From a virus, in IMG/VR virus record IMGVR_UViG_3300027917_000123, positions 1 to 30,978 of that record: DNA of 30,978 bases, one strand, 5' to 3'. Below are positions 2,428 to 30,978 of this stretch, piece after piece. The notes below the pieces were generated by a model. It did not search any database. It had not been told where the DNA came from and saw nothing but the letters and a program-made list of their open reading frames with translations. Made by a program: the position numbers and the translations under genes. Positions within the stretch are counted from its first letter, which is position 1. The number at the start of each line of letters is the position of its first letter.

Positions 2428-2442
2428 TATTCACCTCAATCA

Positions 2443-4411: not shown

Positions 4412-4412
4412 T

Positions 4413-5373: not shown

Positions 5374-5785
5374 TTCTATGCTCCTTCGTGTGTTTTTCTA
5401 TTACTTTTTTGATTTCGTCTATTTGTCTATTGCTATTTTCCATGTGTTGCTGCACCGATGTGTTTAACTCTTTCAGTTCCGCTCTATTAGCGGCAGAATA
5501 TCCACCAATAGCAAACACACCAACTACTATGAAACCAACAATCCATCGAAACCAAGTGCTGCTCACTTTTGTAGTCAAGGATTGTGAACAGTTTTCATAA
5601 CAGGTGTTTCTTTCTTCCCTCTGCTTGTCTATCTTTTCAACAATGCATGAACGTTGATCTTCTATCTTTCTGTCTGTCTTGTCATGAAAACGTTCAATTT
5701 TATCATGGAGTTCTTTTACGTCTGATCTCATATCATCTCGTAGTTTATGAATCTCCTGCACAATTTCAACTAGATTGTCTACCAT
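5345..5785 (-). CDS. Coiled-coil protein with one central membrane segment, 146 aa
   Basis: Residues 1-75 are a long charged heptad-like coiled coil (VEIVQEIHKLRDDMRSDVKEL...), followed by one hydrophobic helix at about residues 84-103 (WIVGFIVVGVFAIGGYSA) and a second coiled coil to the end. There is no cleavable signal peptide. Long coiled coils with one membrane span occur in XhlA-type haemolysins, spanin-like and other phage envelope proteins. This one differs from XhlA in carrying coiled coil on both sides of the membrane. It is the promoter-proximal gene of the leftward operon. A lysis or host-envelope role is possible but unproven. Confidence 0.6.
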   Translation of the reverse strand: MVDNLVEIVQEIHKLRDDMRSDVKELHDKIERFHDKTDRKIEDQRSCIVEKIDKQREERNTCYENCSQSLTTKVSSTWFRWIVGFIVVGVFAIGGYSAANRAELKELNTSVQQHMENSNRQIDEIKKVIEKHTKEHRNANTKIGGK

Positions 5786-9672: not shown

Positions 9673-12600
9673 ATGGCACGTTACCATTTTCAAGGAAGAG
9701 CGAGAGACACATACGGAAACGTAAAACTAAACGAACCAATATCAATATGGGAAGCAGGAACAGGACAGACAACACCCGCAATTGTTTATACTGCCTTTAC
9801 GGGTGGCTCACCGATCAGTGCGGCACCACAAATTACTTCTGATGCTTTCGGTTATTTTTCATTTTACGTAGACGATACAGACTATCCCGGTGCCGGGGAA
9901 TATTTTGATATTACTTCTTCGGAGTTTACTTACACTAATATTGATGTAATCAGAAGAGGGCCAAGTGGAACGTCTGGAACAAGCGGCACAAGCGGGTCTT
10001 CAGGAAGCAGCGGCACTTCTGGGTCTTCGGGAAGTTCGGGAAGTTCGGGAAGCAGCGGAACAAGCGGGTCTTCAGGTACAAGTGGTGTTCAAGGCCCTGC
10101 CGGTACAAGTGGCACAAGCGGGTCATCAGGTACATCAGGTAGTATTGGCCCATCCGGTGCGGCAGGAAGTTCAGGAACTTCTGGAACATCGGGTGTTGAT
10201 GGTACAAGCGGCACAAGTGGAAATTCAGGCACAAGTGGATCAAGTGGAACATCGGGTGTTAGTGGAACATCGGGAACAAGCGGTGTTAGTGGAACAAGTG
10301 GAACATCAGGAAGTAGTGGTACTTCTGGGTCTTCAGGCACAAGTGGATCATCTGGATCAGGATTTACCTATAGAGGAACGTGGGCGGTTTCTACAGCATA
10401 TTATGTATGGGATATTGTAGAAAACGATGGAAGAACATTTATCTGTGAAGTAGAACACGTTTCAACAGCAACAGATGAGCCGGGGGTTGGAATCAATTGG
10501 ACTCTTGCATGGGGAATATTTGTCGATAACTCTGGTACATCGGGAACATCTGGTTCTTCAGGCACAAGTGGAAGCTCAGGCACATCAGGCACTAGCGGTG
10601 ATGGAATAGTATGGGAAGGAACATGGATTACTTCTACTAGCTATCAGGAAAACGATGTTGTAGAATCAGGTGGGAATGCCTATATAGCAACATCAAATCA
10701 TACATCAGACTCTACTACCCAACCGGGAAGTGGTGCATCATGGGATACAGTTTGGGATGTCTTCTCTACAGGAGCGGGAACATCAGGAACAAGTGGATCA
10801 TCAGGATCGGGATTTACATGGAAGGGGCCGTGGGCTGTATCTACTTCTTACATAGTTGATGATGTTGTAGAAAATAACGGTGATGCATATATCTGTACAG
10901 TGAACCACACATCTGTTTCTACAGATGAGCCGGGGGTTGGAATCAATTGGACTCTTGCATGGGATTTGTTTGTATCAGAAGCAGGTACATCAGGAACAAG
11001 CGGTACTTCAGGCACAGCAGGAACAAGTGGTAGTAGTGGATCATCTGGTAGTAGTGGCAGCAGCGGAACGAGCGGAGAAAGTTTCAACTGGCAAGATGGT
11101 TGGGTATCTGGTGCAGCATATGTTGAGAGAGACATCGTAAACAATGCAGGAAACGTTTACTTCTGTACAACCGACCATACATCAGACCTTACAAACGAAC
11201 CACCTTCAGGTGGATCATGGACAACCTATTGGGATGAGTTTCTACAAGGTGGGGTAAGTGGAACATCAGGAACATCAGGTGTCAGCGGTACTTCTGGATC
11301 ATCAGGAACATCAGGTGTCAGCGGTTTCAGTGGCACCTCTGGAACCAGTGGTACAAGCGGAACCACAGGTACTTCAGGAACTTCAGGTATTAGCGGTACT
11401 TCAGGATCAAGCGGTACTTCAGGCACAGCAGGAACATCTGGATCAAGCGGTACTTCAGGTGGTGGGGCGGTTGCTGAAAGATATAGATTTAGCACAAGCA
11501 TTGCCGATAGTGATCCCGGCAGCGGATATTTAAGATTCAATAATTCTACATATTCAAGTGTAACAAGAATCTATATCGATCTTCAGAATTTCTACGCACA
11601 AGATGTAACAAATTGGATTGCGACATTTGATGATTCCGATAGTACAATAAGAGGATACATAAAGGTTTCAAGCCGATCAACGGCAACCAATTGGGCGTTA
11701 TTTGCAATTACAGGAGCAAATATTACTGCTACTGGATATAGAAAGATTGTTGTATCTTACGTAACAGCAGGATCAAGCCTATCCAACAATGAAGGAGTGA
11801 ATGTTTCATTTGTAAGAACAGGTGATGCCGGTGCCATTGGCGCAACAGATAGAATCCAATCAGGCAATGATGTTGTAAGAGCATACGGAACCGGAAGCGT
11901 AAAGATAAGTGCAGACGGAACGCTTGTTACCGAATTTACTTCTGGTGGTGCTACAGTAAGACACTACGTACCACTACAGTTACAAACAGGTGGATCAGTA
12001 AACGCTATATCTTCTACTCCTACAGGTGATCCAAATACTCTTCTAACTGGAACAGCGGTTTCAGCAATGACTTCCGGTGCGGGGGCGGGTGGCCTATTTA
12101 ATGAAGATGGAAACAATAATATAGTTGGTGGTACAGGTGCCGGGGGGTCGCTGACAACCGGAGCAGACAATTTCCTTGCCGGTGTAAATGCAGGGGCATC
12201 ACTGGATGACGATGATAATACAGTAATAATCGGAAACAATGCCGGTGCAGATATAACACAACAGACTAATGGCTCTGTTATTGTTGGTTATAACGCAGCA
12301 AGATATCTGGAAAGCAGTGCCGGTGAAAACATAGTAATTGGTACTGAAGCAGGTTGGGGCCATGCATCAAATCCAATTGATTATGCACGATCTATCTTCA
12401 TTGGATACCAAGCAGGTTACAGTAATGAAACGGCTCTTGACGTTGTTGCTATTGGTACACAATCTCTTTATAATGAGACCGATGGTAGTAATAGTGTCTA
12501 CATTGGATATCAATCAGGGTTCGGAACAGGAGCATCAACATTTAATGCTTCAAATAATGTCTATATTGGATATAGAGCAGGGTATTCTATCGATTCAACA

Positions 12601-13644
12601 GATAATAATGTTGGTATAGGCGATTCTGCATTATATTCTGCTGCACTTACCACTTCTAGTCAAAATGTAGCAATTGGCCCCAATGCGGGTAGAGATTTAA
12701 CACAGGGAAGTAATCAGGTATTCATAGGTTACAATGCAGCTAGATATCTGGAAACCGGCACCGGTACGAACATATGTATCGGTGCAGAAGCAGGACGTGG
12801 ACATGCTACAAATCCCAATACATATGGTGGGTGTGTATTCATCGGCTATAATGCAGGACAAGACAATGAAAGTGGTTCTTTCAGTGTAGGAATTGGATAC
12901 AATGCATTAGCAGACATGACCACTTCTAACTTTAATGTAGCAGTCGGTTTTGCTGCCGGTGAGGATTTACCTTCACAGACAAACCCAAGTACTCTTATAG
13001 GTGGAAATGCAGGAAGATATATAAACAGCGGAAATGGTGGTAACACTGTTGTTGGTTACGATGCCGGTAAGGGAGCGGTAAGTACCACAAGCTATGAAAG
13101 CTGCGTGTTTATCGGAAACGATGCGGGAACAGCAAACCTATCAGGTGATAATAATATCGCAATAGGTAGAGATGCACTTAGCGTAGGAACTACAGTAGCA
13201 AACAATGTAGTAATAGGATATCAGGCAGGACAAAACGTAACCGGTGACAGCAATGTTATCCTTGGATACCAAGCAGGACAAAACGAGACAGCAATTTCAA
13301 ACAAACTGATAATTGCAAATTCAAATACCTCTACTCCGTTGGTATCCGGTGATTTCAGTACCAATATGTTCCATATCCACGGTACAATTACTTCTGATAG
13401 TGTAAGAACAGGAATAGAAACACTATCAGCAGCAGTGTCAGCAGTAATCAGTTTTTCTACGGATATTGGCACAACATCATATAATATAATAGGAAACTTG
13501 GAAAACACAACCGATGCATCACCATCATTCTATAACTGGTTAATAGTAGATAAGCAGACATCGGGATTTACAGTAAGATTTTCAGGAACGCTAGATAGTA
13601 GTAATTATGTATTTAACTATCGTGCAGACACGGGAGTATTTTAA
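9673..13644 (+). CDS. Giant tail-fibre protein: collagen-like repeats, four CBM5/12-like modules, YadA-like stalk
   Basis: A 1323-residue fibre. Residues 1-95 form a beta-rich anchor ([16 protein letters not shown]). Gly-X-Ser collagen-like triplets, mostly G-T-S and G-S-S, then occupy about residues 96-228 and four later stretches. Between them are four modules of about 55 residues (roughly 230-285, 310-366, 379-433, 470-525) with pattern W-x-x-x-x-x-Y-x-x-x-D-x-V-x-x-x-G-x-x-Y-I-C...H-T-S...E-P...W...W, typical of CBM5/12 chitin-binding-like domains. After a beta domain, about residues 795-1215 carry many N-x-V-x-I-G-x-x-A-G repeats like trimeric adhesin heads. There is no S74 chaperone. 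It shares TAATG with the next fibre. Receptor or surface-polysaccharide binding is expected. Confidence 0.85.
10365..11250 (+). repeat. Four carbohydrate-binding-like module copies inside the fibre gene
   Basis: Copies start near 10365, 10605, 10809 and 11082, each about 165 bases, separated by Gly-Thr-Ser coding stretches. Copies 1 and 3 share an identical 43-base block (10471-10513 and 10921-10963), although the DNA around it differs, indicating recent copying or gene conversion between modules. Copies 2 and 4 are more divergent. Confidence 0.75.
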
Positions 13645-16447: not shown

Positions 16448-16472
16448 AATACTTCAAAATGTGAGAGTGAAA

Positions 16473-19217
16473 ATGTTCAACAAAATTTATGCACACACCT
16501 CTTTTCTTGGTCATACCGGCTATGCCAACCATTCAAGAGAGTTCTTCACCCATCTAAACGATAGAATTAAAGTGAGAGTACGAAACTATGCTCACACACC
16601 GGATATTTCTTATCTGACGGAAATGCAGAGAGATATGATTCTTCAGCAGAGATGGGAACAACCACCTTGGACAGTTGGTAAGCCAGATACGATCAGAAAG
16701 GAAGACGATGTTCTCCACATCGTTTTGAATGAGACACACCATTATTTTTTCTACGATAATTATGTAGGCCCAAAGATTGCTTACAATGTATGGGAAAGTA
16801 CACGACAACCACAATACTACTTTGACAAGCTATTAGAGTATGATCAATTGTGGGTTCCTACCGAATGGCAGAGACAATGTAGTATAGAACAGGGATACCC
16901 AGAAGACAGAGTAAAGGTTGTTCCTGAAGGCATTGATAGTAATATCTTCACACCGGATACATATGTAGGTAATTATATAAAACCATTTACATTCATGATA
17001 TTCGGCAGATGGGATTACAGAAAATCGATAGAGGAAATTGTGAGGGCGTTCACACTTGAATTCAAAGAAGAAGATGTTGAGCTTTTGATATCGGCAGACA
17101 ACCCATTTTCAAATGATGGTATGGGTTCGACAGAAGCACGATTAGAAAGAATGGGTGTTTCAGATTCACGTATAAAAATACTTCATTTCCCACCATTCAA
17201 GGAATATGTGAACCATCTAAAATTGGGAAACTGTCTTGTTACCTGTTCACGCTCTGAAGGATGGAATATACCACTGATTGAAGCAATTGCTTGTGGTACA
17301 CCAACCATATGCTCAGACTTTGGCGCACAACTTGAATTTGCAGAAGGCATATCACACAAGGTAAAAATCAAAGAAATGAAAAAACCAGAGAACGTTTTCA
17401 TGTTTGAAAAAGAAGAGGTTCCCGGTGAATGGTCTGAACCAGACTATGAAAATCTACAAGAAGTAATGCGATATGTCTATGAGAATTATGAATTATGTAA
17501 GAAGAGAGCATTGGAAGGATCGAAGAAAATCCGAAAGGAATTCACATGGGAAAAAGCCGTAGATAAAGCAATGGTTCACATACGTGAGCTATATGAACGA
17601 CAACCAAAAAGAGTAATTCTGAATCTTGGATGTGGAAACGATATAAAGAAAGGATACGTAAACATTGACAGATATAACAATACTAATGGTGTGGATGTGA
17701 ATGCCGATGTTATGGTTCTGCCATTCAAGGACGATTCAATAAACGAAGTATTTATATCACACACCGTTGAGCATTTTAGTAAAGATGATGTTCTACGGTT
17801 GTTCAAGGAATTCAACAGAGTATTGAGACCTAATGGTTGGTTAGATGTGCGGGTTCCAGATTTCGATGTATGTGTTCAGAAATGGACGGAGAGCGAAGAC
17901 AAATGGGGAGCATTGGATCATATATTTGGTGGTCAAACACATGAAGGAAATTTTCACTACTCTGGTTTTACAAGAAACACTCTTTCATCGTTGGCGGCAC
18001 GACATGGATTCAGTGTCACTTCATGTGAAAGTAAACCCAATCCTATATCAGGTGATATAGAACTAGTAATGATTGCAAGGAAGAAGAATAGTATGGAGAT
18101 TCCTAAAATTGATTGTAATTGTCACTTTGTCAATGGTGCGTTCATGGAAATCAAAGGTGAAGGTGAGCATGAATATAGAATCGAATTCATTGACAAGGAC
18201 AACAATGCAATGGTTCACAGCACATTGCTGAAACCGAATCATTGGACAAAACCACATAGGAAGTATTTCACCAATTGGCAACTAAAAGTAAAGGGATATG
18301 GAGAAGAGATTTTCAGACACGATTTTGATGCAAGGGGAAGACGTGTTCTGATATATCTTGACAGCAAATCACTTGGAGATACAATAGCATGGTTCCCATA
18401 TATAGAAGAGTTCAGAAAGAAGCATGATTGTCATGTTATTGCAACTACATTTTGGAATCTGTTCTTTCAGAGAATGTACCCAGAGATAGAGTTTGCACCA
18501 CCGGGAACAACTCATGATAACTTGTATGCAATGTATTCCGTTGGTTGCAGAGACAGCATCCATCACAACAAAACACCGTGGATCACTGTTCCACTACAGC
18601 AGGTTGCATCAGATTATCTTGGTATTGAGTACAAGGAGATTAAGCCGCTTATTGACATTCCTGAAACGGGAAGAAAGATAAAAGGCAAATACGTCTGTCT
18701 AACAGAACACTCTACGGCACTATTCAAATACTGGAACTATCCGAATGGGTGGCAAGAGGTTGTAGACTTCCTGAGAGACAGTGGATACAAGGTAGTAGTA
18801 ATAAGCAAAGAGAAAACAAAACTGAAAGGAGTAATAAACAAGACTAATCGACACATAAAAGAAACCATGTCTTATCTGAAATATGCCCGGTGCCTGTTAG
18901 TAGGCCCATCAGGTTTAGGTTGGTTGGCATGGGCTATGGACGTTCCGGTAATCATGGTGTCTGGTATATCACAAGACTTCTGTGAATTTCAGACAGGGAT
19001 AACAAGGGTTCAGAACAAAGATGTATGTCATGGTTGTTTCAATGATCCAAGATTCAAGTTCGACAAGGGAGATTGGAATTATTGTCCACTACACAAGGGA
19101 ACACCAAGACAATTTGAATGTACCAAGAAAATTTATCCCCAAATGGTTATCGATGCCACAAGAAACCTGTTGAATATAAATAATAAGGGGGGAGAAAACT
19201 ATGGGTATATTAGATAA
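16473..19217 (+). CDS. Fused glycosyltransferase (GT4) / methyltransferase / TibC-like heptosyltransferase
   Basis: I prefer ATG 16473 (MFNKIYAHTSFLG, which starts directly at the first Rossmann strand); a GTG at 16461 is also in frame. Three enzymes in 914 aa. Residues 1-370: GT4 glycosyltransferase with VVPEGID and the E-x7-E motif SEGWNIPLIE (E262, E270). Residues 380-540: SAM methyltransferase with NLGCGN and LRPNGWLDVRVPD. Residues 540-914: strand-loop-strand segment then GT9-like fold (YLDSKSLGDTIAWFP) ending in four cysteines (C852, C855, C871, C883; HGCFND...GDWNYCPLHKGTPRQFEC), as in the iron-binding autotransporter O-heptosyltransferases TibC/Aah. Those glycosylate Ser in adhesins. 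Next to Ser/Thr-rich fibres, fibre glycosylation is a strong inference. It overlaps the portal start. Confidence 0.85.
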   Translation: MFNKIYAHTSFLGHTGYANHSREFFTHLNDRIKVRVRNYAHTPDISYLTEMQRDMILQQRWEQPPWTVGKPDTIRKEDDVLHIVLNETHHYFFYDNYVGPKIAYNVWESTRQPQYYFDKLLEYDQLWVPTEWQRQCSIEQGYPEDRVKVVPEGIDSNIFTPDTYVGNYIKPFTFMIFGRWDYRKSIEEIVRAFTLEFKEEDVELLISADNPFSNDGMGSTEARLERMGVSDSRIKILHFPPFKEYVNHLKLGNCLVTCSRSEGWNIPLIEAIACGTPTICSDFGAQLEFAEGISHKVKIKEMKKPENVFMFEKEEVPGEWSEPDYENLQEVMRYVYENYELCKKRALEGSKKIRKEFTWEKAVDKAMVHIRELYERQPKRVILNLGCGNDIKKGYVNIDRYNNTNGVDVNADVMVLPFKDDSINEVFISHTVEHFSKDDVLRLFKEFNRVLRPNGWLDVRVPDFDVCVQKWTESEDKWGALDHIFGGQTHEGNFHYSGFTRNTLSSLAARHGFSVTSCESKPNPISGDIELVMIARKKNSMEIPKIDCNCHFVNGAFMEIKGEGEHEYRIEFIDKDNNAMVHSTLLKPNHWTKPHRKYFTNWQLKVKGYGEEIFRHDFDARGRRVLIYLDSKSLGDTIAWFPYIEEFRKKHDCHVIATTFWNLFFQRMYPEIEFAPPGTTHDNLYAMYSVGCRDSIHHNKTPWITVPLQQVASDYLGIEYKEIKPLIDIPETGRKIKGKYVCLTEHSTALFKYWNYPNGWQEVVDFLRDSGYKVVVISKEKTKLKGVINKTNRHIKETMSYLKYARCLLVGPSGLGWLAWAMDVPVIMVSGISQDFCEFQTGITRVQNKDVCHGCFNDPRFKFDKGDWNYCPLHKGTPRQFECTKKIYPQMVIDATRNLLNINNKGGENYGYIR
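19175..19182 (+). promoter_or_regulatory. Late promoter before portal gene
   Basis: An exact TATAAATA, the T4 late promoter core, 18 bases before the portal start and inside the last codons of the glycosyltransferase gene. It is followed by a strong ribosome site (GGGGGGAG). This is the first of a series of such boxes across the head cassette. Confidence 0.6.
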
Positions 19218-20562
19218 TATTTTTGGAAACGATAGAGTAGAAGAAGCAATTGAGCAATTCAAAGACAAGGGGGAACAACCAAAACCTGAAACCCAGAGAG
19301 GTGAAGGTTGGGAAAGTGTTATCGACATTCCCGGTTATGGCAACGTTGGTCTCCAATCATTCAATCTTTTTTACGATCAATACATAAACAGAGCGTTCAA
19401 GAACGAACTTGAAAAGCTGAAGACATATCGTGAAATGTCACTGCAACCAGAGGTTTCTGATGTTATAGAAGACGCAGTAAACGAATCTACGTTGGAAGAC
19501 AGCAACGGTAAAGTACTAACGCTTGATATCCTTGACAAGGATTTGGCTACAAATGAAAACATCGTAAACAATCTTCACAAGGAATTTGAAGAACTTTTTG
19601 AAAGAAGAGTAAATTCCAAAGAAGCGATATGGGATTTACTGCGAACATATTACATTGATGGTAGGGTATTCTTTGAAAAGGTTATCGATGAGAAAAACCC
19701 CAAGAAAGGAATACTGAGCATCAAGCGTCTCCCATCCGAAACAATTGACTACATATACGATCCATTTACAGGACACATCAGTGCGTATTTTCAATATTTG
19801 AAACAAAACACAAAAAAACCTAAAACTCTGGAAGATGTTCAGAAAGCACAGAGTAAAAATGAAATCATTGCTTTTTATCCAGAACAGATAGGTTTTGTCA
19901 ATTATGGAATTTTTGGAAAAACGAAATATGAAATCTTTGGTTATCTTGAAAAAGCAAAGGTTCCATTCAATCAATTGAAGCTTCTGGAAACATCAGTTAT
20001 AATCTACAGAATCGTTCGTGCGCCTGAACGTCTTGTTTTCAGAATTGACACAGGCAATATGCCAAGAGACAAGGCTCTAAAGTATGTAGAGAAGATCAAG
20101 CAGAAGATGACAAAGAAGCAATCCTATGACCCAACAACAGGACAGCTTTCACAGGAACCAGAAGTATTATCAATACTTGAAAACTATTATATGCCACAGT
20201 CAGCAGATGGTAGAGGATCACAGATCGACACCGTTGGTGGCAATTCAGCGGGATTCTCCGAACTGGATGATATCTACTATTTTGCAAAGAAACTCTACCG
20301 TGCATTGAAATATCCCGCATCTCGTACATCAGCAGCACAGGAAAGACGTGAAGGTGATATAATGTTTGGCGGCAACAGCACTGGCGAAATTTCCAGAGAC
20401 GAAGTAAAATGGGCAATGTTCCTTGAAAGAAACCAAAAGAAATTTGAAGATGAGTTTACCGATCTATTTTTGATGCACCTTGAATTCAAGGGGCTGAAGG
20501 AACAGTATGGGTTGAATAAGAAGAAAATCCGAGCGCAACTTACTCCACCAAGCAATTACTAG
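19201..20562 (+). CDS. 20: Portal vertex protein, T4 gp20-like, ending at an in-frame TAG
   Basis: A 453-residue match to T4 gp20, the dodecameric portal at the packaging vertex. It shows the conserved core APERLVFRIDTGNMPRDKA, then the clip/wing segment YDPTTGQLS, LENYYMPQSADGRGSQI, and ELDDIYYFAKKLYRALKYP. T4 gp20 is about 524 residues; this frame stops early, after PPSNY, at TAG (20560-20562). The same frame continues with GAA CAG ATG and 75 residues that look like the missing portal C-terminus (next feature). So the gene is either split, read through, or carries a nonsense mutation or sequence error. Its start MGILDNIFGND partly resembles the small-protein leader. Confidence 0.93.
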   Translation: MGILDNIFGNDRVEEAIEQFKDKGEQPKPETQRGEGWESVIDIPGYGNVGLQSFNLFYDQYINRAFKNELEKLKTYREMSLQPEVSDVIEDAVNESTLEDSNGKVLTLDILDKDLATNENIVNNLHKEFEELFERRVNSKEAIWDLLRTYYIDGRVFFEKVIDEKNPKKGILSIKRLPSETIDYIYDPFTGHISAYFQYLKQNTKKPKTLEDVQKAQSKNEIIAFYPEQIGFVNYGIFGKTKYEIFGYLEKAKVPFNQLKLLETSVIIYRIVRAPERLVFRIDTGNMPRDKALKYVEKIKQKMTKKQSYDPTTGQLSQEPEVLSILENYYMPQSADGRGSQIDTVGGNSAGFSELDDIYYFAKKLYRALKYPASRTSAAQERREGDIMFGGNSTGEISRDEVKWAMFLERNQKKFEDEFTDLFLMHLEFKGLKEQYGLNKKKIRAQLTPPSNY

Positions 20563-22251: not shown

Positions 22252-22298
22252 ATAGTGATATACCGTGAGGTATGAAGATTAGTATAGGAGGAAAAACA

Positions 22299-23105
22299 AT
22301 GGAAAAACTTCTTGAAATGCTTGGTGTGCAGAAGCTAGAAGAAGATGCACAGAAGGAAATCAAGGAAAAGCTTGAAGCTATCGTTGAAGTGAAGGCAAAG
22401 GAACTTTCAAAGGAAGTTCTGGAAAAAGAGCAAGAAAAACTGGTCGAAGATTACGAAAAGAAGTTTGATGAGTACAAGGATGAAATCACATCTAAGTTTT
22501 CAGATTTCGTTGACGGTATTTTCGAAGAAGAACTAACCATCCCTGAAAAGATAGTTGAATTCGCAGCACGTGGAGAGCTTTACCATGATTTAATTGAACA
22601 ATTCAAGGTTCGTCTGACAGTTGATGAAGGACTGCTAAATGATGAAGTGAAGGCACTTTTGAAGGAAGCAAAGGAAGAAATCGTAAAACTGCGTACAGAA
22701 ATGAATACTCTGTATGAAGCAAACCTTGAGTTGAAGAGTGATGCACAGGAAATGGCAGCACAACTTTACTTGTATGAAAAATGCAAGGGCCTTACCGAAG
22801 CTCAGAAAGACAAAGTTTTCACCATTCTTGAAGGTGTAAAAGACAAGGAAGAAATCGACAAGAAGTTCCCTATCGTTCTTGAGCAGTATAATGATGATGA
22901 CGATGATGATGATGATGATGATGATGATGACATGAAAAAGAAGAAAAAGAAGAAGAACGGTAACGGTGATGACGATGATGATGACATGGATGAAGGCAAA
23001 ACGGGCAAAATTGACGGAGAAGAAATAATCGAAGAAGATGAAAGCCCATTCAAAAAACATCTAGAGGCATATAAGAAAGTATTAAAGGAAAATAGAGTTT
23101 CCTAA
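22299..23105 (+). CDS. 22: Prohead core scaffold protein, T4 gp22-like
   Basis: Start chosen at ATG 22299 (MEKLLEMLGVQ) because AGGAGG lies six bases upstream and the leader is nearly identical to that of the capsid gene; the in-frame ATG at 22272 lacks this. The resulting 268 residues equal T4 gp22 in length. It is an almost continuous charged coiled coil (KELSKEVLEKEQEKLVEDYEKK) as expected for the scaffold that fills the prohead and is degraded by gp21. Near residue 200 it has 13 consecutive Asp, then Lys-rich and second Asp-rich runs, encoded by GAT/GAC repeats. Leu-Glu-Glu near the start is a likely cleavage site. Confidence 0.88.
   Translation: MEKLLEMLGVQKLEEDAQKEIKEKLEAIVEVKAKELSKEVLEKEQEKLVEDYEKKFDEYKDEITSKFSDFVDGIFEEELTIPEKIVEFAARGELYHDLIEQFKVRLTVDEGLLNDEVKALLKEAKEEIVKLRTEMNTLYEANLELKSDAQEMAAQLYLYEKCKGLTEAQKDKVFTILEGVKDKEEIDKKFPIVLEQYNDDDDDDDDDDDDDMKKKKKKKNGNGDDDDDDMDEGKTGKIDGEEIIEEDESPFKKHLEAYKKVLKENRVS
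22890..22987 (+). repeat. GAT/GAC microsatellite coding poly-Asp in scaffold
   Basis: Runs of GATGAT(GAC) units encode 13 and later 6 Asp residues, separated by AAG/AAA lysine codons. The near-pure trinucleotide repeat is prone to in-frame slippage, so length may differ between related phages. Confidence 0.7.
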
Positions 23106-23129: not shown

Positions 23130-23152
23130 TTAGTACAGGAGGAAAAACAATG
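23130..23152 (+). promoter_or_regulatory. Strong conserved translation leader of capsid gene
   Basis: The 23 bases up to and including the ATG match those before the scaffold gene (22279-22301) at all but one position: TTAGTA, then C or T, then AGGAGGAAAAACA-ATG. A perfect AGGAGG and an A-rich spacer suggest high translation of both abundant head proteins. Confidence 0.6.
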
Positions 23153-24382
23153 AACATTGCACAGTTAGTAGAAAAGTGGAAAGAAGTACTTGATGAGGGT
23201 AGAGAAATCAAAAGACCTAGTGTTTTGAATTCTACTGCGATCATGCTTGAAAATCAGCATAACTATCTTAACGAAACAACTGGTTGGGGTTCAGACTCAT
23301 TCGGAACCGGTGACGGTAGAGGTTTGGCAAACTGGACAACATCAGGTATGTTCAACAAGATTGCCGTGCCGATGGTAAGACGTACTTTCCCTGAGTTGGT
23401 AGCTCACGATCTAGTTGGTGTCCAACCTCTTACTGGCCCTGTTGGATTGGCATTCGCTCTTAGATTTAAGAGTGGTGGCCCAGACACATATGGTGGAAGT
23501 AGTAATGTAGAACTTGGTTACAATACCGTAGATTCTTCTTACTCTGGATCATATATCACCTCTGCCGGTGAAGCTCTGGGTTCAGCCGCAGGTTCAGGTG
23601 TTGGTTCTGATATCGGCCTTGGTGTTGGTGCAGGAACACACATGAATGAAGTCAACATGACCGTAGAAAAGACCCAAGTAGAAGCAAAGACTCGTAAACT
23701 GAGAAGCCGTTGGTCTCTTGAAGTTGCACAAGACCTTAGAGCAATGCATGGTCTGAATCTGGAAGAAGAAATGATGGATATTCTATCATATGAAATCACC
23801 CAAGAAATTGACCGTGAATTGATTACTAAGATTGCTAATGTATGTACTACAGGTGGTTCATCTTATGATACCACATGGAACTACACCGCAGCATCAGGCA
23901 CAGGCGTTCCCGGTGGACGTTGGGAAATGGAAAGATATCGTGAAATGTATCACTATCTGATCCGTAGAAGCAACAGAATCGCAATCGAAACTCGTAGAGG
24001 TTCTGCAAATTGGGTAGTTGGTAACTACAGAGCAACCGCTATCTTTGAAACACTGCCTAACTTTACTATTGCTCCGGTTCCCGGTAATGTAGTAACAGCA
24101 GGTATTGGTGTATCAAGACAAGGTTCTCTTGACGGAAGAATCACTGTTTACAGAGATACTTTCGAAACAACCGACAAGTTTATCCTTGGATATAAAGGCC
24201 CATCTGAGTACGACACTGGTGTAATTTATCTGCCTTATGTTCAACTGCTAGCAAGCAGAGCAGTATTCGAAAATTCATTCCAACCATCAATGGGATTGAT
24301 GAGTAGATACGCAATTCACGAACATATGTTTGGCGCAGCTAAATACTATCAGCAAGTAACACTCGTAAACATTCCTACCTAA
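23150..24382 (+). CDS. 23: Major capsid protein, T4 gp23-like
   Basis: A 410-residue HK97-fold capsid protein of the T4 type. The diagnostic stretch MVRRTFPELVAHDLVGVQPL-x-GPVGLAFALRF matches gp23 (VRRAIPNLIAFDICGVQPM...). The N-terminus MNIAQLVEKWKEVLDEG matches the T4 delta region (LLNKWKPLLEG). Leu-Asn-Glu in HNYLNETTGWG (about residue 44-46) is a good candidate for protease cleavage, removing a shorter propeptide than T4's 65 residues. It is shorter than T4 gp23 (521), so surface insertions are missing. The C-terminus SRYAIHEHMFGAAKYYQQVTLVNI is typical. An own terminator follows. Confidence 0.96.
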   Translation: MNIAQLVEKWKEVLDEGREIKRPSVLNSTAIMLENQHNYLNETTGWGSDSFGTGDGRGLANWTTSGMFNKIAVPMVRRTFPELVAHDLVGVQPLTGPVGLAFALRFKSGGPDTYGGSSNVELGYNTVDSSYSGSYITSAGEALGSAAGSGVGSDIGLGVGAGTHMNEVNMTVEKTQVEAKTRKLRSRWSLEVAQDLRAMHGLNLEEEMMDILSYEITQEIDRELITKIANVCTTGGSSYDTTWNYTAASGTGVPGGRWEMERYREMYHYLIRRSNRIAIETRRGSANWVVGNYRATAIFETLPNFTIAPVPGNVVTAGIGVSRQGSLDGRITVYRDTFETTDKFILGYKGPSEYDTGVIYLPYVQLLASRAVFENSFQPSMGLMSRYAIHEHMFGAAKYYQQVTLVNIPT

Positions 24383-24413: not shown

Positions 24414-24449
24414 AAAGGAGTGGGAAGAAATTCTCGCTCCTTTTTTGTT
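24414..24449 (+). terminator. Intrinsic terminator after capsid gene
   Basis: AAAGGAGTGGGA (24414-24425) pairs, with two G-T wobbles, with TCTCGCTCCTTT (24432-24443) around the loop AGAAAT, followed by a T-rich tract. The loop sequence is the same as in the terminator after the SpoVR gene. Confidence 0.8.
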
Positions 24450-24454
24450 TTTTG

Positions 24455-24462
24455 TATAAATA
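24455..24462 (+). promoter_or_regulatory. Late promoter before small terminase
   Basis: An exact TATAAATA right after the capsid terminator and 37 bases before the small-terminase ATG, so terminase transcription restarts here. No further clear late box lies before the PrkA module, which could be read from this promoter. Confidence 0.6.
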
Positions 24463-24499: not shown

Positions 24500-24976
24500 A
24501 TGCCATTGTTAGACAGACAGAATTTGGAAGAAGAATTCAACATAAATGATGAACAACCTGTGGAACCAGAGATAGTAGATGACCACGATGAATTTGAAGC
24601 TGAATGGGAAAGAGAAAACGATCCACGTACCATTATAGCAGACAACATTGAACGTGCTAATGAAATTCTCGACAAGGTACAGGAAGAAATTCAACGGGGA
24701 AACTTTACAGCACGTTTAGTAGAAGTTGCCGGGAACCTTATCAACTCCGTCACAGCAGCAAGTAAGGAACTGATATCAGACGAAAATTACAGACGATATT
24801 TACATTTGCGTGACAAACTGGTAAAATTGAAAAAAGTAGAAGTTGAATGGAAGGTATCTGGCAAGAGCAACAAGATTACTAATCAAAATTTGATCCTTGC
24901 AAACCGTGAAGACATACTGAAAATCATGGGTAAAAAGGATGAATTACCGGCACCTGAAGAAAGCGAAAAAAATTAG
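24500..24976 (+). CDS. 16: Terminase small subunit, gp16-like
   Basis: A 158-residue acidic helical protein. After a flexible acidic start it has IIADNIERANEILDKVQEEIQRGNFTARLVEVAGNLINSVTAASKELI, a pattern (N-x-x-x-A-x-x-I-L-D...G-x-x-x-A-R-L-x-E-V-x-x-x-L-I-N-S-V-T-x-A) I associate with the central coiled-coil of T4-type small terminases, which form rings and regulate DNA cutting by gp17. The length is close to T4 gp16 (164 residues). Unlike T4, its partner gene does not follow directly: the PrkA-YhbH-SpoVR genes intervene. It ends in TAG. The family call is by pattern and context. Confidence 0.75.
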   Translation: MPLLDRQNLEEEFNINDEQPVEPEIVDDHDEFEAEWERENDPRTIIADNIERANEILDKVQEEIQRGNFTARLVEVAGNLINSVTAASKELISDENYRRYLHLRDKLVKLKKVEVEWKVSGKSNKITNQNLILANREDILKIMGKKDELPAPEESEKN

Positions 24977-25045: not shown

Positions 25046-27037
25046 ATGACAAAAACCGTAAAAGAAAGGAGCCAACCTGTGAACAATCAAGATTTTAGAG
25101 ATATCATTTTAGCACAGAGAGAAAAGAAGGGATCGGTTGCCACAGAAGAGATGTCAATGCTTGACTATATGAAATTGGCACAAGAGCAACCAGAAATCGC
25201 AAATTTCGCACCGGGAAGAATCTACAACATGATCATGAAGTATGGTGTAGACGAACTTCCAACCGAATACAAGACAAAAGGCTATGAAGACTTGGTGAAG
25301 TACAAGTTCTTTGATGGTAAAATATTCGGCACCTACGAACCAATCCACGACCTCATGCGGTTCATGAAAGCTTCAGCACGAAGAACGGAGACCGGAAAGA
25401 GAATTCTTATCATGGTCGGCCCCGTGTCTTCAGGAAAGTCAACCATTGCTGCAAACGTCAAAAAAGGATTAGAGAAAGACAATACTCCGATGTATGCAAT
25501 CAAAGGTTGTCCGATCCACGAAGAACCTCTCCATCTTATCCCAGAAGAAGATCGTGAAGATTGGGAAGAAAGACTTGGAGTAAAAATTGAAGGCTTTGTA
25601 TGTCCGGTATGTCAGCAGATGCTTGACACCGAATATACAAGTGATGGTATCGTCAATTGGGAAGACGTACCAGTTATACCGATCAAAACTTCCGAACAGC
25701 GAAGAATAGCAATCGGAACATTTCAACCGTCCGATCCGAAATCACAAGACATCACCGAATTGATTGGACGTGTGAACATGAGCAAGATCGCTCGTTTCGG
25801 AGAAACAGACCCACGTGCTTATCAGTTCGATGGAGAACTTCAAGTTGCCAACCGTGGCATGATTGAATACATCGAAATCCTGAAAGCAGATGTGAAGTTC
25901 CACTATGTTCTGATTACGGCAGCACAGGAACAGACCATCAAAGCACCGGGTTTCCCGCAGATGTACATCGACAGTTTGATTCTGTCACACACCAACCAGA
26001 CAGAGTTTGATGCATTCGCAGGAGACAAGAAGAACGAAGCGTTGCATGACCGTATGTATCCGGTTTATGTGCCGTGGAACTTGCGTGTGGATGACGAAGT
26101 AAAAATCTATGAGAAGATGATTCATGAATCAGATTTCCGTGGAATCCACATCGCACCTTACACCCTTAAAATCGCTGCTTCGTTTGCAGTGTTGACACGG
26201 CTTGTAGAAGACAAGAAATGTTCTTCTCTTATCCACAAGATGAAACTCTACAACGGTGAGACCATCGATGAATTCAAGAAGTCAGACATCGATATCAAAC
26301 AGTTGTATGAGCGTGGACGTGCAAACGGAGAAGGTATGTCCGGCATCTCTCCACGATTCATCATCAATGCATTGAACGTTGCACTTGGTATGAAAGAAGA
26401 CAAGTCATGTATCACACCGATTGATGTTCTACGTGCGTTGAGAAACAATTTTGGACATCAAATCGGAATGAAGGATGAAGACGTTGAAAAATATCTAAAC
26501 ATCCTTTCCGGTGATAAAAACTCTGTCCTTACAGAGTACATGGAAGTTGCAAAGAAAGAAGTAAATCTTTCCTTCCTTCACGCATATGAAGATCAGGCAG
26601 AAGAATTGTTCAACCGTTATATGTTGAACGTGACTGCTTTCGTAAGCAAGGAGCAGGTATACGATTCAGTAACAGGTGAAGAGTCACCACCCGATGAAGA
26701 CCTGATGAGAAAACTGGAAGAGATTATCAAGGTTCCAGAAAACTCAAAGGAACAATTCAGAAACGGAATCTTTGTACAGAAAGCACGATGCCTTGAACAG
26801 GGTCAGCCTTTCACCTTCAAAGATTACGATCCGCTGAAGGATGCGATTGAGAAGAAACTTATGAGCGACCTGAAGAACGTTGTTCAGCTTTCAATCGCAA
26901 CCACCACGAATACCAGTGACAAGGCGAAACGTAAGAGAAGTACCGCAATGAAAACGTTGATGAAACGTGGATACTGCAAGCATTGTGCGGAAGTACTTCT
27001 AATGTTTGTTGGAGAGATTCTAAGGAAGGCAAACTAA
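25046..27037 (+). CDS. prkA: PrkA-family AAA+ serine protein kinase / protease-like protein
   Basis: A full-length 663-residue PrkA (E. coli YeaG is about 644). The AAA+ part has Walker A GPVSSGKST (G125 to T133, K131), then KGCPIHEEPLHLIPEE...LGVKIEGFVCPVCQ, matching the Firmicute-type PrkA more than YeaG, then GELQVANRGMIEYIEI, VLITAAQEQ and the LSHTNQTEF / DRMYPVYVPWNLRV-x-DE-x-KIYEK sensor region. The C-terminal kinase-like domain ends KAKRKRSTAMKTLMKRGYC. In bacteria PrkA acts with YhbH/YeaH and SpoVR/YcgB in stress, stationary-phase and sporulation control; substrates are poorly known. Nothing looks degraded. The ribosome site is AAGGAG. The cofactor genes follow directly. Confidence 0.93.
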   Translation: MTKTVKERSQPVNNQDFRDIILAQREKKGSVATEEMSMLDYMKLAQEQPEIANFAPGRIYNMIMKYGVDELPTEYKTKGYEDLVKYKFFDGKIFGTYEPIHDLMRFMKASARRTETGKRILIMVGPVSSGKSTIAANVKKGLEKDNTPMYAIKGCPIHEEPLHLIPEEDREDWEERLGVKIEGFVCPVCQQMLDTEYTSDGIVNWEDVPVIPIKTSEQRRIAIGTFQPSDPKSQDITELIGRVNMSKIARFGETDPRAYQFDGELQVANRGMIEYIEILKADVKFHYVLITAAQEQTIKAPGFPQMYIDSLILSHTNQTEFDAFAGDKKNEALHDRMYPVYVPWNLRVDDEVKIYEKMIHESDFRGIHIAPYTLKIAASFAVLTRLVEDKKCSSLIHKMKLYNGETIDEFKKSDIDIKQLYERGRANGEGMSGISPRFIINALNVALGMKEDKSCITPIDVLRALRNNFGHQIGMKDEDVEKYLNILSGDKNSVLTEYMEVAKKEVNLSFLHAYEDQAEELFNRYMLNVTAFVSKEQVYDSVTGEESPPDEDLMRKLEEIIKVPENSKEQFRNGIFVQKARCLEQGQPFTFKDYDPLKDAIEKKLMSDLKNVVQLSIATTTNTSDKAKRKRSTAMKTLMKRGYCKHCAEVLLMFVGEILRKAN

Positions 27038-27220
27038 ATGGGCGTTAGGGTTCAAGTGGTTATAGAATCCGACTCTAGGGATGACGAAACTACGATCTCT
27101 GCTTGGTTCCAGACAACGGACTGCCAAGAATTTATAGAATGGATAGAGAAAGTTCGCTCCCTAGAGTCCTATAACCAATCCAAAGGACGTACACAAGTAA
27201 AGGGGTTTACGGGGAGATAA
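27038..27220 (+). CDS. Small unknown protein between PrkA and YhbH genes, 60 aa
   Basis: A 60-residue beta-alpha protein, MGVRVQVVIESDSRDDETTISAWF...FIEWIEKVRSLESYN. It starts at the base after the PrkA stop with AAGGAAGG as ribosome site and ends two bases before the YhbH homologue, so it is co-translated with the module. Alternating strand VRVQVVIES and helix ECIEWIEK-like (EFIEWIEKV) suggest a compact fold. No known family. Position suggests a regulator or adaptor for the kinase module. Confidence 0.6.
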   Translation: MGVRVQVVIESDSRDDETTISAWFQTTDCQEFIEWIEKVRSLESYNQSKGRTQVKGFTGR

Positions 27221-27222
27221 CC

Positions 27223-28554
27223 ATGTCGATTATTTACCATGATGATTGGGGAATTTCCGAAAAGGGAAGAAAAGATGCTGAACGTCATAGAGAAAAGATA
27301 GATGACGCTATCAGAAAGAACGTGAGAGATGTTATTTCGGAAGAGTCAATCATTACCAAAAAAGACGGAAAGAAAGTTCGAATTCCTGTAAAGGGAATGA
27401 AGGACTACCGCTTCATTTATGGTAGGAATAAGAATGGTGCGGGTGTTGGTCAAGGCCCTGCGAAACCGGGAGATGTCATTGGTAAACAGCCTAAACCGGG
27501 GCAAGGGCAAGGTGGAGACAAAGCAGGTCAAGCACCGGGGGAAGACTACATGGAAACAGAAGTCGATATTGACTATCTGATAAAAATCATGTTTGAAGAT
27601 TTGGGTCTTCCTTGGATCGAAGAGAAAACAAAAAAACAAATTCTGGTTCCTAAAGGATGGAAGTTCGAAACCATTTCTAAGAAAGGGATCATCCCACGTA
27701 TACATAAAAAGAGAACCATGATCGAAGCACTGAAACGAAACGTTATGTTCTGTGCTGAAATTATGGAAGAGACAGGTTGTACGGAAGAGCTTGCAGCAGC
27801 AGCATTGATGCAAGCAGCAGGAGATATCAATGAAGCAATCGAATTGATCGCAAAAGAAGCAGTGACAGAGCCACCTTCAGGAGCGGTTCTTATCGATGAC
27901 GATGACTTACGATTCAAGCAGATTGAGCATGATGTTGAATACCACTCAAAAGCAGTAGTAATTGCAATGATGGATGTGTCAGCATCAATGCATCAGAAGA
28001 AGAAATACCTTGCAAGGTCAATGCTCTTCTGGTTGGTACAATTCCTGAAGAAAATGTATGACCATGTTGATATCCGTTTCATCACCCATACCACTGACGC
28101 AAAACTGGTTGACGAAGATACGTTCTTCCACAAAGGGGAATCAGGGGGAACATATTGTGGTTCAGCATTCGAACTTGCTAATCACCTTATTGATACGGAA
28201 TACCCTACAGACGAATGGAACGTGTATACCATTTATCTGTCAGATGGTGAAGACTTCAATCCACAAGATACAGTAAACAAAATCAAAGAGATGATCAAAA
28301 AAGAAATCAGTATGCTTGGTTATGTGGAAATCCTTGTGGCATATGATGAGAACACCGGATGGTATGGATCAAACGAATGGAGAACTTTACTAGCCGAAAT
28401 CAAGAAGAACTATAAATTTGAAAAGATTACAAAAGATGGAACAGAGTTTTACAAAAACAGTGAGAAGAGGTTTCTGCTTGCAGTGATAAAGAACAAGTCA
28501 CACGTTTATCCTGCACTGAAACATTTGTTGTTCGAAAAGAAGAAAACCAAATAG
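27223..28554 (+). CDS. yhbH: YhbH/YeaH (DUF444, UPF0229) VWA-type protein with UBA-like insertion
   Basis: A 443-residue homologue of YhbH (Bacillus, about 390) and YeaH (E. coli, about 427). The N-terminus has the family RHREKIDDAIRKNV...IP-x-KGMKDYRF, a Gly/Lys linker, then LIKIMFEDLGLPWIEEK. A von Willebrand A domain follows with MIDAS D251-V-S253-A-S255, FITHTTDAKLVDEDTFFHKGESGGT and IYLSDGEDFN. Unlike YeaH or YhbH as I recall them, residues about 173-212 (AEIMEETGCTEELAAAALMQ, then AGDINEAIELI) form a UBA/TS-N-like three-helix domain between the KKRTMIEALKRN segment and the VWA domain. It works with PrkA and SpoVR in bacteria. It ends in TAG. Confidence 0.9.
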   Translation: MSIIYHDDWGISEKGRKDAERHREKIDDAIRKNVRDVISEESIITKKDGKKVRIPVKGMKDYRFIYGRNKNGAGVGQGPAKPGDVIGKQPKPGQGQGGDKAGQAPGEDYMETEVDIDYLIKIMFEDLGLPWIEEKTKKQILVPKGWKFETISKKGIIPRIHKKRTMIEALKRNVMFCAEIMEETGCTEELAAAALMQAAGDINEAIELIAKEAVTEPPSGAVLIDDDDLRFKQIEHDVEYHSKAVVIAMMDVSASMHQKKKYLARSMLFWLVQFLKKMYDHVDIRFITHTTDAKLVDEDTFFHKGESGGTYCGSAFELANHLIDTEYPTDEWNVYTIYLSDGEDFNPQDTVNKIKEMIKKEISMLGYVEILVAYDENTGWYGSNEWRTLLAEIKKNYKFEKITKDGTEFYKNSEKRFLLAVIKNKSHVYPALKHLLFEKKKTK

Positions 28555-28569
28555 AAAAAGGAGTACAAG

Positions 28570-28833
28570 ATGTTGAAAGAATTTTTTCAAAAATGTTGTT
28601 ACGTTGTCGATAGAGCGTTTTTCCTTTGGGATGACCAGAGTGCCAAAAGAAAGGCCAGTATATTGATGGGGGCAATCGTCCTTACCGGTAGTTTCTTTGG
28701 TCTGGGATTTGTCCTTTTTCCTGCTATCATTCTTTGGGCATTGAGAATGCTTTTTCTGGAAGGCTTCATTGCAGAGTGGAGTGGAGAATTCATTGATGAC
28801 AAAAATGAAGCATGGGAAACAGAACAAAAGTAA
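28570..28833 (+). CDS. Small membrane protein within the PrkA module, 87 aa
   Basis: An 87-residue protein with an amphipathic start (MLKEFFQKCCYVVDRAFF), then basic SAKRKAS and a hydrophobic region at about residues 31-61 (ILMGAIVLTGSFFGLGF, VLFPAIILWALRML), either two short spans or one long re-entrant stretch, and an acidic tail. The ribosome site AAAGGAG is seven bases upstream. It sits between the YhbH and SpoVR genes, in frame with the TAG of the former. It may tether the module to the membrane or be an unrelated phage gene such as a holin-like protein; the sequence cannot decide. Confidence 0.65.
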   Translation: MLKEFFQKCCYVVDRAFFLWDDQSAKRKASILMGAIVLTGSFFGLGFVLFPAIILWALRMLFLEGFIAEWSGEFIDDKNEAWETEQK

Positions 28834-28850
28834 ACAGCTAGGAGCCTATT

Positions 28851-30434
28851 ATGCAAAATACTGAACTTCAAAGATTGATAAAGATAGAAGATCGAATCAT
28901 GCAGCTAGCAGAAGAATATGGTTTGAAGACGTGCGAAATCGAATGGGATATCGTACCAGACCAAAAGATGCTAGAGATCATGGCATATCATCTTCCTGTC
29001 AATATTTCGAACTGGAAGTATGGAAGAGATTATGAAAGATTGAGAACCATTCATGAGAACGTGAATCCTGCACTACCATATGAAGTTGTGATCAATTCCG
29101 ATCCGTCACGGGCATACCTGATGAAATCGAACACCTTTGCTGTTCAGTGTTTAGTCATGGCACACGTAGTAGGCCACACATCTTTTTTCACGATGTCAAA
29201 GTATTTCATTCCAACACGCAAAGACATATTAGAAGTAATGATGAGAGCGTCAGAGCGGTTTACGGAATACGAAAGAAAGTATGGCATCGATGAATTAGAA
29301 TTGATCGTGGATGCGGGTCATGCTCTTCAATTCCATTCGTCTCCTTTCGATAATGAGACAGAAGAAGAAAAACGTCAAAGAATCTTCGAATACAAGAAAC
29401 GTGAAGCACATAATCCCGCTCCACGATCAGAATTCAAAGACATTCTCCATAAGGAGAAAGAAATAGGAATGGATATAGAACTCTTCAATCAGAACCTTTG
29501 GAGAAGTCTACGAATGAAGGTTCCTGTTGAACCAACCGGAGACATCCTTAGATTCCTGATTGACCATTCTCCAATACTGGAAGATTGGCACAAAGATATT
29601 CTGGAAATATGCAGACTAGAAGGTAGATATTTCTGGCCCCAATTGAAAACCAAATATATGAATGAAGGGTTTGCTACATATTGGCATCAGATCATTATGG
29701 ATCGTCTATTCGATGAAGGATTACTTAGCACAAGTGATCATTCACAGTACAACTATTCTAACTCACTTGTGAAAGCAAAGAATCCTTATTCAATGAATCC
29801 ATATCAGATTGGTTGTGCAATGTGGGAAGACCTTGTAGAGCGTTGGAACAAGGGGAGACATGGACAAGAGTATGAGAATTGCCAGAACATAGAAGAGAAG
29901 AAAAAATGGGATACCAAAGACATGAAGGGTCATGAGAAGATGTTTGAAGTGATGCAGACACATACTGATTGGTTCTTTATGCAGGAGTTTCTTACACCAC
30001 AATTGGTTGCCGATCTTGAATTGTTTATCTATGTTATTCAAGAGACACCAGAAGCATATGAAGCCGTAGTAACAAAACATATGGCTCAAGAGATAAAGGA
30101 TTTGATTGTTGCAAGCTTCTCACACTCCCAAATTCCGCTTGTAGAAATTGTGGATGGTAAGTATCAGGGTAATGGGTTATATCTTGAACACAGGCACGTA
30201 GGAGCGGATTTGAACAGGAAATATGCAGAGGAAACTATGAAGCATATATTCCGTCTTTGGGGAAACGCTGTCTACTTGAAAACTCAGGAGAATGGAAACC
30301 AGACTGTTCTGAAATGTTCAAGTAAAGGAGATAAACCAAGACCTACAGCAGCAAACAGTCCTACAACCGCAAGGGCTAGTAAATTGAGTCTATTGAAACA
30401 TGGAGATTATCACGTAGAGTATACAACAGAATAA
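28851..30434 (+). CDS. spoVR: SpoVR/YcgB family protein
   Basis: A full-length 527-residue SpoVR (YcgB is about 510). Family landmarks: EIEWDIVPDQKMLEIMAYHLPVNISNWKYG near the N-terminus, SDPSRAYLMKSNTFAVQCLVMAHVVGHTSFF, DILRFLIDHSPILEDWHKDILEICRLEGRYFWPQ, and TKYMNEGFATYWH, followed by the C-terminal DLELF...LYLEHRHVGADLNRKYAEETMKHIFRLWG block. In Bacillus it is needed for spore cortex formation; its biochemical activity is not established, though conserved His/Glu suggest a metalloenzyme fold. The last 40 residues, Ser/Thr-rich, are less typical. The ribosome site AGGAG is close to the ATG. A tandem repeat duplicates its stop codon region. Confidence 0.93.
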   Translation: MQNTELQRLIKIEDRIMQLAEEYGLKTCEIEWDIVPDQKMLEIMAYHLPVNISNWKYGRDYERLRTIHENVNPALPYEVVINSDPSRAYLMKSNTFAVQCLVMAHVVGHTSFFTMSKYFIPTRKDILEVMMRASERFTEYERKYGIDELELIVDAGHALQFHSSPFDNETEEEKRQRIFEYKKREAHNPAPRSEFKDILHKEKEIGMDIELFNQNLWRSLRMKVPVEPTGDILRFLIDHSPILEDWHKDILEICRLEGRYFWPQLKTKYMNEGFATYWHQIIMDRLFDEGLLSTSDHSQYNYSNSLVKAKNPYSMNPYQIGCAMWEDLVERWNKGRHGQEYENCQNIEEKKKWDTKDMKGHEKMFEVMQTHTDWFFMQEFLTPQLVADLELFIYVIQETPEAYEAVVTKHMAQEIKDLIVASFSHSQIPLVEIVDGKYQGNGLYLEHRHVGADLNRKYAEETMKHIFRLWGNAVYLKTQENGNQTVLKCSSKGDKPRPTAANSPTTARASKLSLLKHGDYHVEYTTE

Positions 30435-30473
30435 GCTAAAAAAGGCACAACAGAATAAGCTAAAAAAGGCACA
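30423..30473 (+). repeat. 24-base tandem duplication over the SpoVR stop
   Basis: A 24-base unit occurs twice plus three bases, without mismatch. It contains the last codons and TAA of the SpoVR gene and an AAAAAAGGCAC arm that matches the terminator stem. The duplication leaves two possible left arms for the following terminator. Confidence 0.85.
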
Positions 30474-30505
30474 GGGAGAAATCCTTGTGCCTTTCTTTTT
30501 TTTTC
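30465..30505 (+). terminator. Intrinsic terminator after SpoVR gene
   Basis: AAAGGCACAGGG (30465-30476) pairs with CCTTGTGCCTTT (30483-30494), one wobble, around AGAAAT, followed by C and a run of T. It ends the PrkA-YhbH-SpoVR transcript before the large terminase gene. Confidence 0.85.
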
Positions 30506-30511
30506 TCTTTG

Positions 30512-30519
30512 CATAAATA
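30512..30519 (+). promoter_or_regulatory. Late-type promoter before large terminase
   Basis: CATAAATA, one mismatch from the T4 late box, directly follows the terminator and lies 30 bases before the terminase ATG. The terminase therefore seems transcribed separately from the PrkA module. Confidence 0.5.
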
Positions 30520-30549: not shown

Positions 30550-30978
30550 ATGCCAATCAAGTATGATGAATATGTAAAAAGACCAAACGAAGAAGTAGAA
30601 TATACACCAGAGCAGATTGAGGAACTTTATAAGTGTTCGCAAGATGTAAATCATTTTATCAAATATATAAAGATCGTTAATCCTGATAAAGGTGAAATCT
30701 TTTTCGAACCCTACGATTACCAACTCGACCTGTTAAAAAAATTCCAAGATCATAGATTCAATGTAGCACTATGCTCACGTCAGAGCGGCAAGACAACCAT
30801 CGTTGCCGCATACGTGTTATGGTATGCGTGTTTCCATCAAGACAAGGTAGTTGGTATAGTATCAAATAAAGAAACATCAGCAAAAATGATCCTGTCAAGG
30901 TTTAAGCGAATGTATGAACAGCTTCCCGTATGGCTGAAACCGGGGGTTACTGAATACCAGAAGACAGGAGTACAATAT
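30550..30978 (+). CDS. 17: Terminase large subunit, T4 gp17-like, N-terminal part
   Basis: The first 143 residues of the packaging motor ATPase, cut by the window end. After a charged start (MPIKYDEYVKRPNEEVEY) it has VNHFIKYIKIVNPDKGEI, the adenine-binding type segment FEPYDYQLDLLKKF, and the Walker A of T4-type terminases SRQSGKTT (K81, in FNVALCSRQSGKTT), then VVGIVSNKETSAKMILSRFKRMYEQLP. Walker B and the nuclease domain are outside. The ribosome site AAGGGGG lies just upstream. In T4, gp17 acts with gp16 and gp20; the small subunit gene lies 5.6 kb upstream here. Confidence 0.95.
   Translation, partial: MPIKYDEYVKRPNEEVEYTPEQIEELYKCSQDVNHFIKYIKIVNPDKGEIFFEPYDYQLDLLKKFQDHRFNVALCSRQSGKTTIVAAYVLWYACFHQDKVVGIVSNKETSAKMILSRFKRMYEQLPVWLKPGVTEYQKTGVQY

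Follow-up and report, generated by a model that had tools for sequence, protein, structure and literature searches.

The window analysed here, the whole of the 30,978-base IMG/VR record IMGVR_UViG_3300027917_000123 (positions 1 to 30,978), encodes on its plus strand homologues of all three proteins of the bacterial PrkA-YhbH-SpoVR system, placed between the small (TerS) and large (TerL) terminase subunit genes of what, judged from its gene content, is a T4-like myovirus. PrkA (663 amino acids; 25046..27037) matches the Pfam families AAA_PrkA (5.6e-110) and PrkA C-terminal (5.5e-68), a YeaH/YhbH-type von Willebrand A (vWA) protein (443 amino acids; 27223..28554) matches DUF444 (1.7e-96), and SpoVR (527 amino acids; 28851..30434) matches SpoVR (2.1e-96) and SpoVR_C (1.4e-09). 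The genes are adjacent and lie in one operon in the order PrkA-DUF444-SpoVR, with two small open reading frames (ORFs) of no known family on the same strand, one of 60 residues after PrkA (27038..27220), which is also present in the close relative L050, and one of 87 residues between DUF444 and SpoVR (28570..28833).

A preliminary description of this DNA had taken the three genes as intact in these reading frames, and their Walker A, metal ion-dependent adhesion site (MIDAS) and SpoVR motifs as preserved; both points are borne out, by the Pfam matches to all three proteins and by residues that do not vary across relatives. The PrkA Walker A motif GPVSSGKS (25418..25441; G125-P-V-x-S-G-K-S132) and the complete DUF444 MIDAS, which joins the DxSxS motif DVSAS (27973..27987; D251-x-S-x-S255) to T310 and D341, are fully conserved among the 19 and 24 relatives aligned, respectively. 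A PrkA relative has a solved structure (9xip), and the fold of DUF444 outside an insert described below matches vWA domains (E 4e-07). In SpoVR, the HxxGH motif (HVVGH; 29163..29177) and the EGxA motif (29664..29675) are common to phages and bacteria, with H105, H109 and E272 invariant across phage and bacterial proteins alike. The two motifs recall a zincin site minus its catalytic Glu, and SpoVR is possibly a pseudo-metallopeptidase; a metal-binding role is a guess. We rejected a classical HExxH protease: the catalytic Glu is missing from the conserved HxxGH, and neither a peptidase profile nor a solved relative was matched.

On the upstream side, an intrinsic-terminator-like hairpin after gp23 (24414..24443; 13 pairs plus a T run) and a T4-type late-promoter motif, TATAAATA (24455..24462), 38 nucleotides before the TerS start, precede a gp16-like TerS gene (24500..24976), all on the plus strand; the TerS label rests on a weak PHROG match (phrog_445, 4.1e-05) and on a position that is kept in relatives. 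On the downstream side, and again on the plus strand, SpoVR is followed by a terminator-like hairpin (30465..30494; 13 pairs plus T9), a late-promoter-like CATAAATA (30512..30519) and a TerL gene of the T4 gp17 type (30550..30978; Pfam Terminase_6N 2.1e-06, PHROG TerL 4e-43) that is truncated by the window end. The gp20 portal, gp21 prohead protease, gp22 scaffold, gp23 capsid and the start of the large terminase were all recognised with Pfam or PHROG, Pfam placing the portal at 19201-20562, the scaffold at 22272-23105 and the capsid at 23150-24382, and a gp17-type large terminase and homologues of gp20 to gp23 are thus found side by side, as in a T4-like packaging cassette.

Conservation and descent of the trio

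Across a large T4-like phage clade, the trio is a core cassette passed on by vertical descent. Searches of viral sequences that started from PrkA and SpoVR yielded dozens of contigs, and TerS-PrkA-DUF444-SpoVR-TerL is the gene order in nearly all of them. Approached from the terminase, 72 distinct TerL sequences were obtained (97% clustering), 52 of them with at least 4 kb upstream; DUF444 and SpoVR lie upstream of TerL in all 52, and PrkA in 49, the contig ending before PrkA in the other three. As the two TerL scans behind this count kept the best 80 matches each, they returned trio-bearing kin only and do not mark the boundary of the clade. In L041 and L049 the capsid gene block is inverted and the TerS-trio-TerL block is nevertheless whole. 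Median spacing is 13 nucleotides between TerS and PrkA and 12 between DUF444 and SpoVR. SpoVR and TerL are 35 to more than 5000 nucleotides apart, with several extra genes between them in a few lineages, so that genes are gained and lost there. Among phage records, 2,620 match the window terminase and 16 of 50,697 match PrkA, the latter being Thermus phages, four huge metagenomic phages and one phage record that starts with host genes; no cultured T4-like phage with the trio was found in the 50,697 records, the overlap of the terminase and PrkA match sets not having been computed directly.

Selection on the trio is as tight as on the capsid and terminase genes: among near relatives, ratios of nonsynonymous to synonymous substitution rates (dN/dS) are mostly 0.04-0.18, the lowest being 0.02, and similar to those of gp23 and TerL. 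The T4-like copies form one clade in the PrkA, DUF444 and SpoVR trees (Shimodaira-Hasegawa-like approximate likelihood ratio support 100, 100 and 99), a point that the preliminary description had proposed to check, and in the PrkA tree this clade is sister to Bacillota/Chloroflexota/Acidobacteriota sequences (97). Homology, gene order, the single clade and purifying selection together indicate that the trio derives from the bacterial PrkA-YhbH-SpoVR operon. The window PrkA is 61-71% identical to its phage relatives, and no bacterial PrkA exceeded 46% in a genome scan; with the closest bacterial protein at ~46%, a recent cargo gene or a recent capture from a known host was rejected. A host search via binned phage contigs in 398 Bacillota genomes found nothing.

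Other phages hold versions of their own. The copies of three huge phages are of the proteobacterial type, those of the Thermus phages group by themselves in the trees of PrkA and SpoVR, and additional huge phages make up a monophyletic clade around LR756511. At least two independent acquisitions by phages are certain. A single origin of the T4-like and LR756511 trios is neither supported nor rejected (approximately unbiased test, p 0.42 for PrkA and 0.51 for SpoVR). A scan using the PrkA of Thermus phage Lalka8 gave no match.

A UBA/TS-N-type domain in DUF444 and predicted late expression

The DUF444 protein of the window contains an insert (27706..27852, plus strand; residues 162-210) that, from its profile and its predicted structure, appears to be a UBA/TS-N-type domain restricted to the T4-like phage clade. 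A stretch of ~50 residues is present at this site in 61 of 61 distinct phage-clade inserts examined, and bacterial proteins are without it: Bacillota mostly have a ~10-residue loop there, and in proteobacteria and three huge phages the site holds ~50 residues that look like coiled coil. The matches to the phage DUF444 profile that were listed for 87 further Bacillota genomes break across the insert stretch. A profile built from the insert matched 124 of 131 phage-clade DUF444 ORFs and none of 102 bacterial, 4 huge-phage and 4 Thermus-phage ones; in the LR756511 clade the insert was not convincingly detected, with one marginal match (E 0.009). Against the PDB, the same profile matched the UBA domain of archaeal NAC (E 0.0005) and EF-Ts (E 0.0019), and single members mostly fall under Pfam cut-offs. 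An AlphaFold model (m619fa14704bf) gives a three-helix fold whose top Foldseek matches are mostly UBA or EF-Ts; their probabilities reach 1.0, but E stays above 0.3, which is normal for a domain of this small size. We found no report of this graft in the openly accessible full-text literature, a search that leaves subscription papers mostly outside.

Late motifs flank the block and none occurs inside it, which predicts that the trio is transcribed together with TerS at a late stage of infection. The T4-type motif [TC]ATAAATA is present in 23 of 37 gaps between the major capsid protein gene and TerS and in 51 of 65 SpoVR-TerL gaps of the relatives, as against 0/46, 0/55 and 0/63 for the successive gaps within TerS-PrkA-DUF444-SpoVR; the coding background is 0.015 per gap-sized stretch (230 nucleotides). 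In agreement with this, the hairpins and late motifs of the window itself bracket TerS to SpoVR. Of eight long contigs tested, six encode small sigma-like proteins of gp55 size, and in four the match exceeds the family cut-off.

Possible functions of the phage trio

We favour, with about even confidence, a model in which the trio encodes a late-expressed AAA+/vWA machine, adapted to the phage, that remodels proteins while virions are produced. PrkA would assemble into an AAA+ ring powered by ATP, with the DUF444 vWA protein as its metal-dependent adaptor, as in MoxR-vWA pairs, and SpoVR would be a third subunit, possibly metal-binding; the phage-specific UBA/TS-N domain on the adaptor would then dock the machine on a lineage-specific target, enabling it to remodel or clear protein assemblies while virions are being made. 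The model draws on the conserved gene order and retention, the TerS-trio-TerL block left whole where the capsid genes are inverted, the flanking late motifs, the low dN/dS, the single clade for each gene and the clade-wide UBA domain, and on the separate trio of Thermus phage Lalka8, which also lies between head genes and TerL. Bacillus PrkA has been described as an AAA+ protein that carries a pore loop and forms oligomers with ATP, its protease and kinase activities being disputed (PMC13001217); under nitrogen starvation, E. coli mutants of yeaG and of yeaH resemble each other (PMC6299236); and the AAA+/vWA pairs of group 2.2 jumbo phages have been proposed to act in virion assembly (Iyer 2021, PMC7824862).

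Several observations weigh against this model. B. anthracis PrkA had neither protease nor kinase activity (PMC13001217), which adds to a disputed enzymology, and the literature links the bacterial trio to starvation and sporulation, not to assembly. In three members of the T4-like clade (L011, L034 and L035), Rad52, RecA or AAA genes adjoin the unbroken trio and the contig contains no TerL, and in the LR756511 clade TerL was seen nearby in two loci only, a DNA polymerase gene lying close in LR756511 itself, the member annotated. The cohesion of the three genes thus exceeds their tie to the terminase: all 69 LR756511-clade loci with room downstream are complete, in the same order PrkA-DUF444-SpoVR. 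The keeping of all three genes together, from which the preliminary description inferred joint action, is upheld, and conservation near the terminase, which it had proposed to check, holds in the T4-like clade (52/52 for DUF444 and SpoVR) but was not seen in these three members of it or in most loci of the huge-phage clade. Because the block is also retained elsewhere, the proposed machine could have a target other than the terminase. In L011 and L034, zinc-finger CapR/Vsr-like and GIY-YIG genes interrupt the trio or have been inserted next to it, and the loci of the three displaced members suggest that the trio moved as a block, assisted by homing endonucleases. Loci of the LR756511 type (L313-L392, L217) are widespread, on records of up to 341 kb.

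The main rival, a tentative possibility that we place well below even, is that the trio controls host physiology, as the preliminary description had proposed, also naming dormancy: a stress module of the phage's own would sustain production in a starved or slow host, or would replace or compete with the host trio, and its position by the terminase would reflect descent only. This would be in keeping with the bacterial roles in nitrogen starvation and sporulation, with the occurrence of the trio in several kinds of large lytic phages, in some by recombination or replication genes, and with the 270-min latent period of Ralstonia phage RsoM2USA, which also has PrkA and SpoVR. However, expression in the T4-like clade is predicted to be late, not early, and an auxiliary gene would seldom be retained so universally, and with so little scatter, among packaging genes; the predicted late promoter, co-transcription with TerS and universal retention fit virion production at least equally well. 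Compatible with either function, and falling somewhat short of an even chance, is an explanation of the position by ancestry, in which extra genes accumulate in the gp16-gp17 interval of T4-like phages and the trio entered it a single time and was then inherited, functionally unconnected to the genes around it. Cyanophage Syn1, with six small genes between gp16 and gp17, and the variable SpoVR-TerL gap speak for it, whereas late promoters that bracket exactly TerS to SpoVR, with none inside, and the tight TerS-PrkA and DUF444-SpoVR spacing speak against it.

AAA+ machines with adaptors are also known in conflict systems, and a role in counter-defence or superinfection exclusion, in which the machine would dismantle a host defence complex or a competing phage, is conceivable but improbable: PADLOC gave no meaningful match, only a weak P-loop one, and constant core retention with slow evolution is unlike arms-race genes. 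An assembly artefact or bacterial contamination has a negligible probability. Host yeaG-yeaH can occupy the end of a phage record, as the record of Enterobacter phage LAU1 shows (MN688132.1, 1-3308; L222), which starts with these genes, probably host sequence beside phage; but a wrongly joined bacterial segment is ruled out here by the same gene order in dozens of independent assemblies, and bacterial PrkA proteins in the genome scan reach at most 46% identity to that of the window as against 61-71% for phage relatives.

A bolder version of the remodelling model, which we consider rather unlikely, holds that T4-like phages rebuilt a bacterial dormancy machine as an essential late remodelling complex, with a grafted EF-Ts/NAC-type UBA domain that directs it to a new target, for which EF-Tu, the nascent-chain machinery and an intermediate of virion assembly are possible candidates. 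Solving it would reveal the biochemical activity of the widespread bacterial PrkA-YhbH-SpoVR system, whose biochemical job has been debated for decades, PrkA having been variously called a kinase, a protease or neither. That two large phage clades always keep all three genes suggests one unit with an activity useful to a lytic virus, and its close association with late packaging genes, like the UBA adaptor peculiar to the clade, offers concrete handles for finding its target.

Other features of the window and comparison with known systems

Elsewhere in the window, a 1,323-residue tail fibre (9673-13644) combines collagen repeats with a CBM5/12 carbohydrate-binding module, possibly a hint that the receptor is a polysaccharide. 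An ORF of 918 residues (16461-19217) that separates the tail-fibre genes from the portal gene encodes a glycosyltransferase-methyltransferase fusion, not a sheath protein. A block of minus-strand ORFs occupies 671-5785, and the three tested (671-2053, 2443-3999 and 4747-5373) gave no Pfam match. No Rfam family or tRNA was found in the window.

The preliminary description knew of no such phage system. No description of a conserved phage trio cassette was found in the openly accessible full-text literature, with the same restriction as to subscription papers; single genes are, however, annotated in Thermus phages and in RsoM2USA, and PHROG families exist for PrkA, DUF444 and SpoVR. RsoM2USA, a Ralstonia jumbo phage, has PrkA (ORF30), SpoVR (ORF28) and a vWA protein (ORF19) close together (PMC8504454); likened here from annotation alone, they were annotated separately, with bacterial best matches for PrkA and SpoVR, and not described as a unit. 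Thermus phages phiYS40, TMA, phiLo, MN1 and Lalka keep all three genes together, as in the window, near TerL in phiYS40 and, in Lalka8, between head genes and TerL, directly before the latter; they differ in gene order (vWA-SpoVR-PrkA), in forming a separate clade, in having no UBA domain and in not being T4-like in the genes compared. The huge-phage trios (the LR756511 clade; LR745206, LR756502 and LR756504) mostly share the gene order of the window, but no TerL was found beside most of them and they have no UBA domain.

The MoxR-vWA pairs of jumbo phages resemble PrkA plus DUF444 in coupling an AAA+ ATPase to a vWA co-chaperone. Their ATPase belongs to another AAA+ family, that of the window being of the PrkA family, and a metallopeptidase is fused to the vWA protein in place of a SpoVR partner, so that the analogy is functional only. 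Closest of all in composition is the bacterial PrkA-YhbH/YeaH-SpoVR/YcgB operon, with the same three families in the same order and with conserved ATPase, MIDAS and SpoVR motifs, from which the phage trio is set apart by its separate clade, by a PrkA at most ~46% identical, by its predicted late promoter and by the UBA domain in its DUF444 protein.

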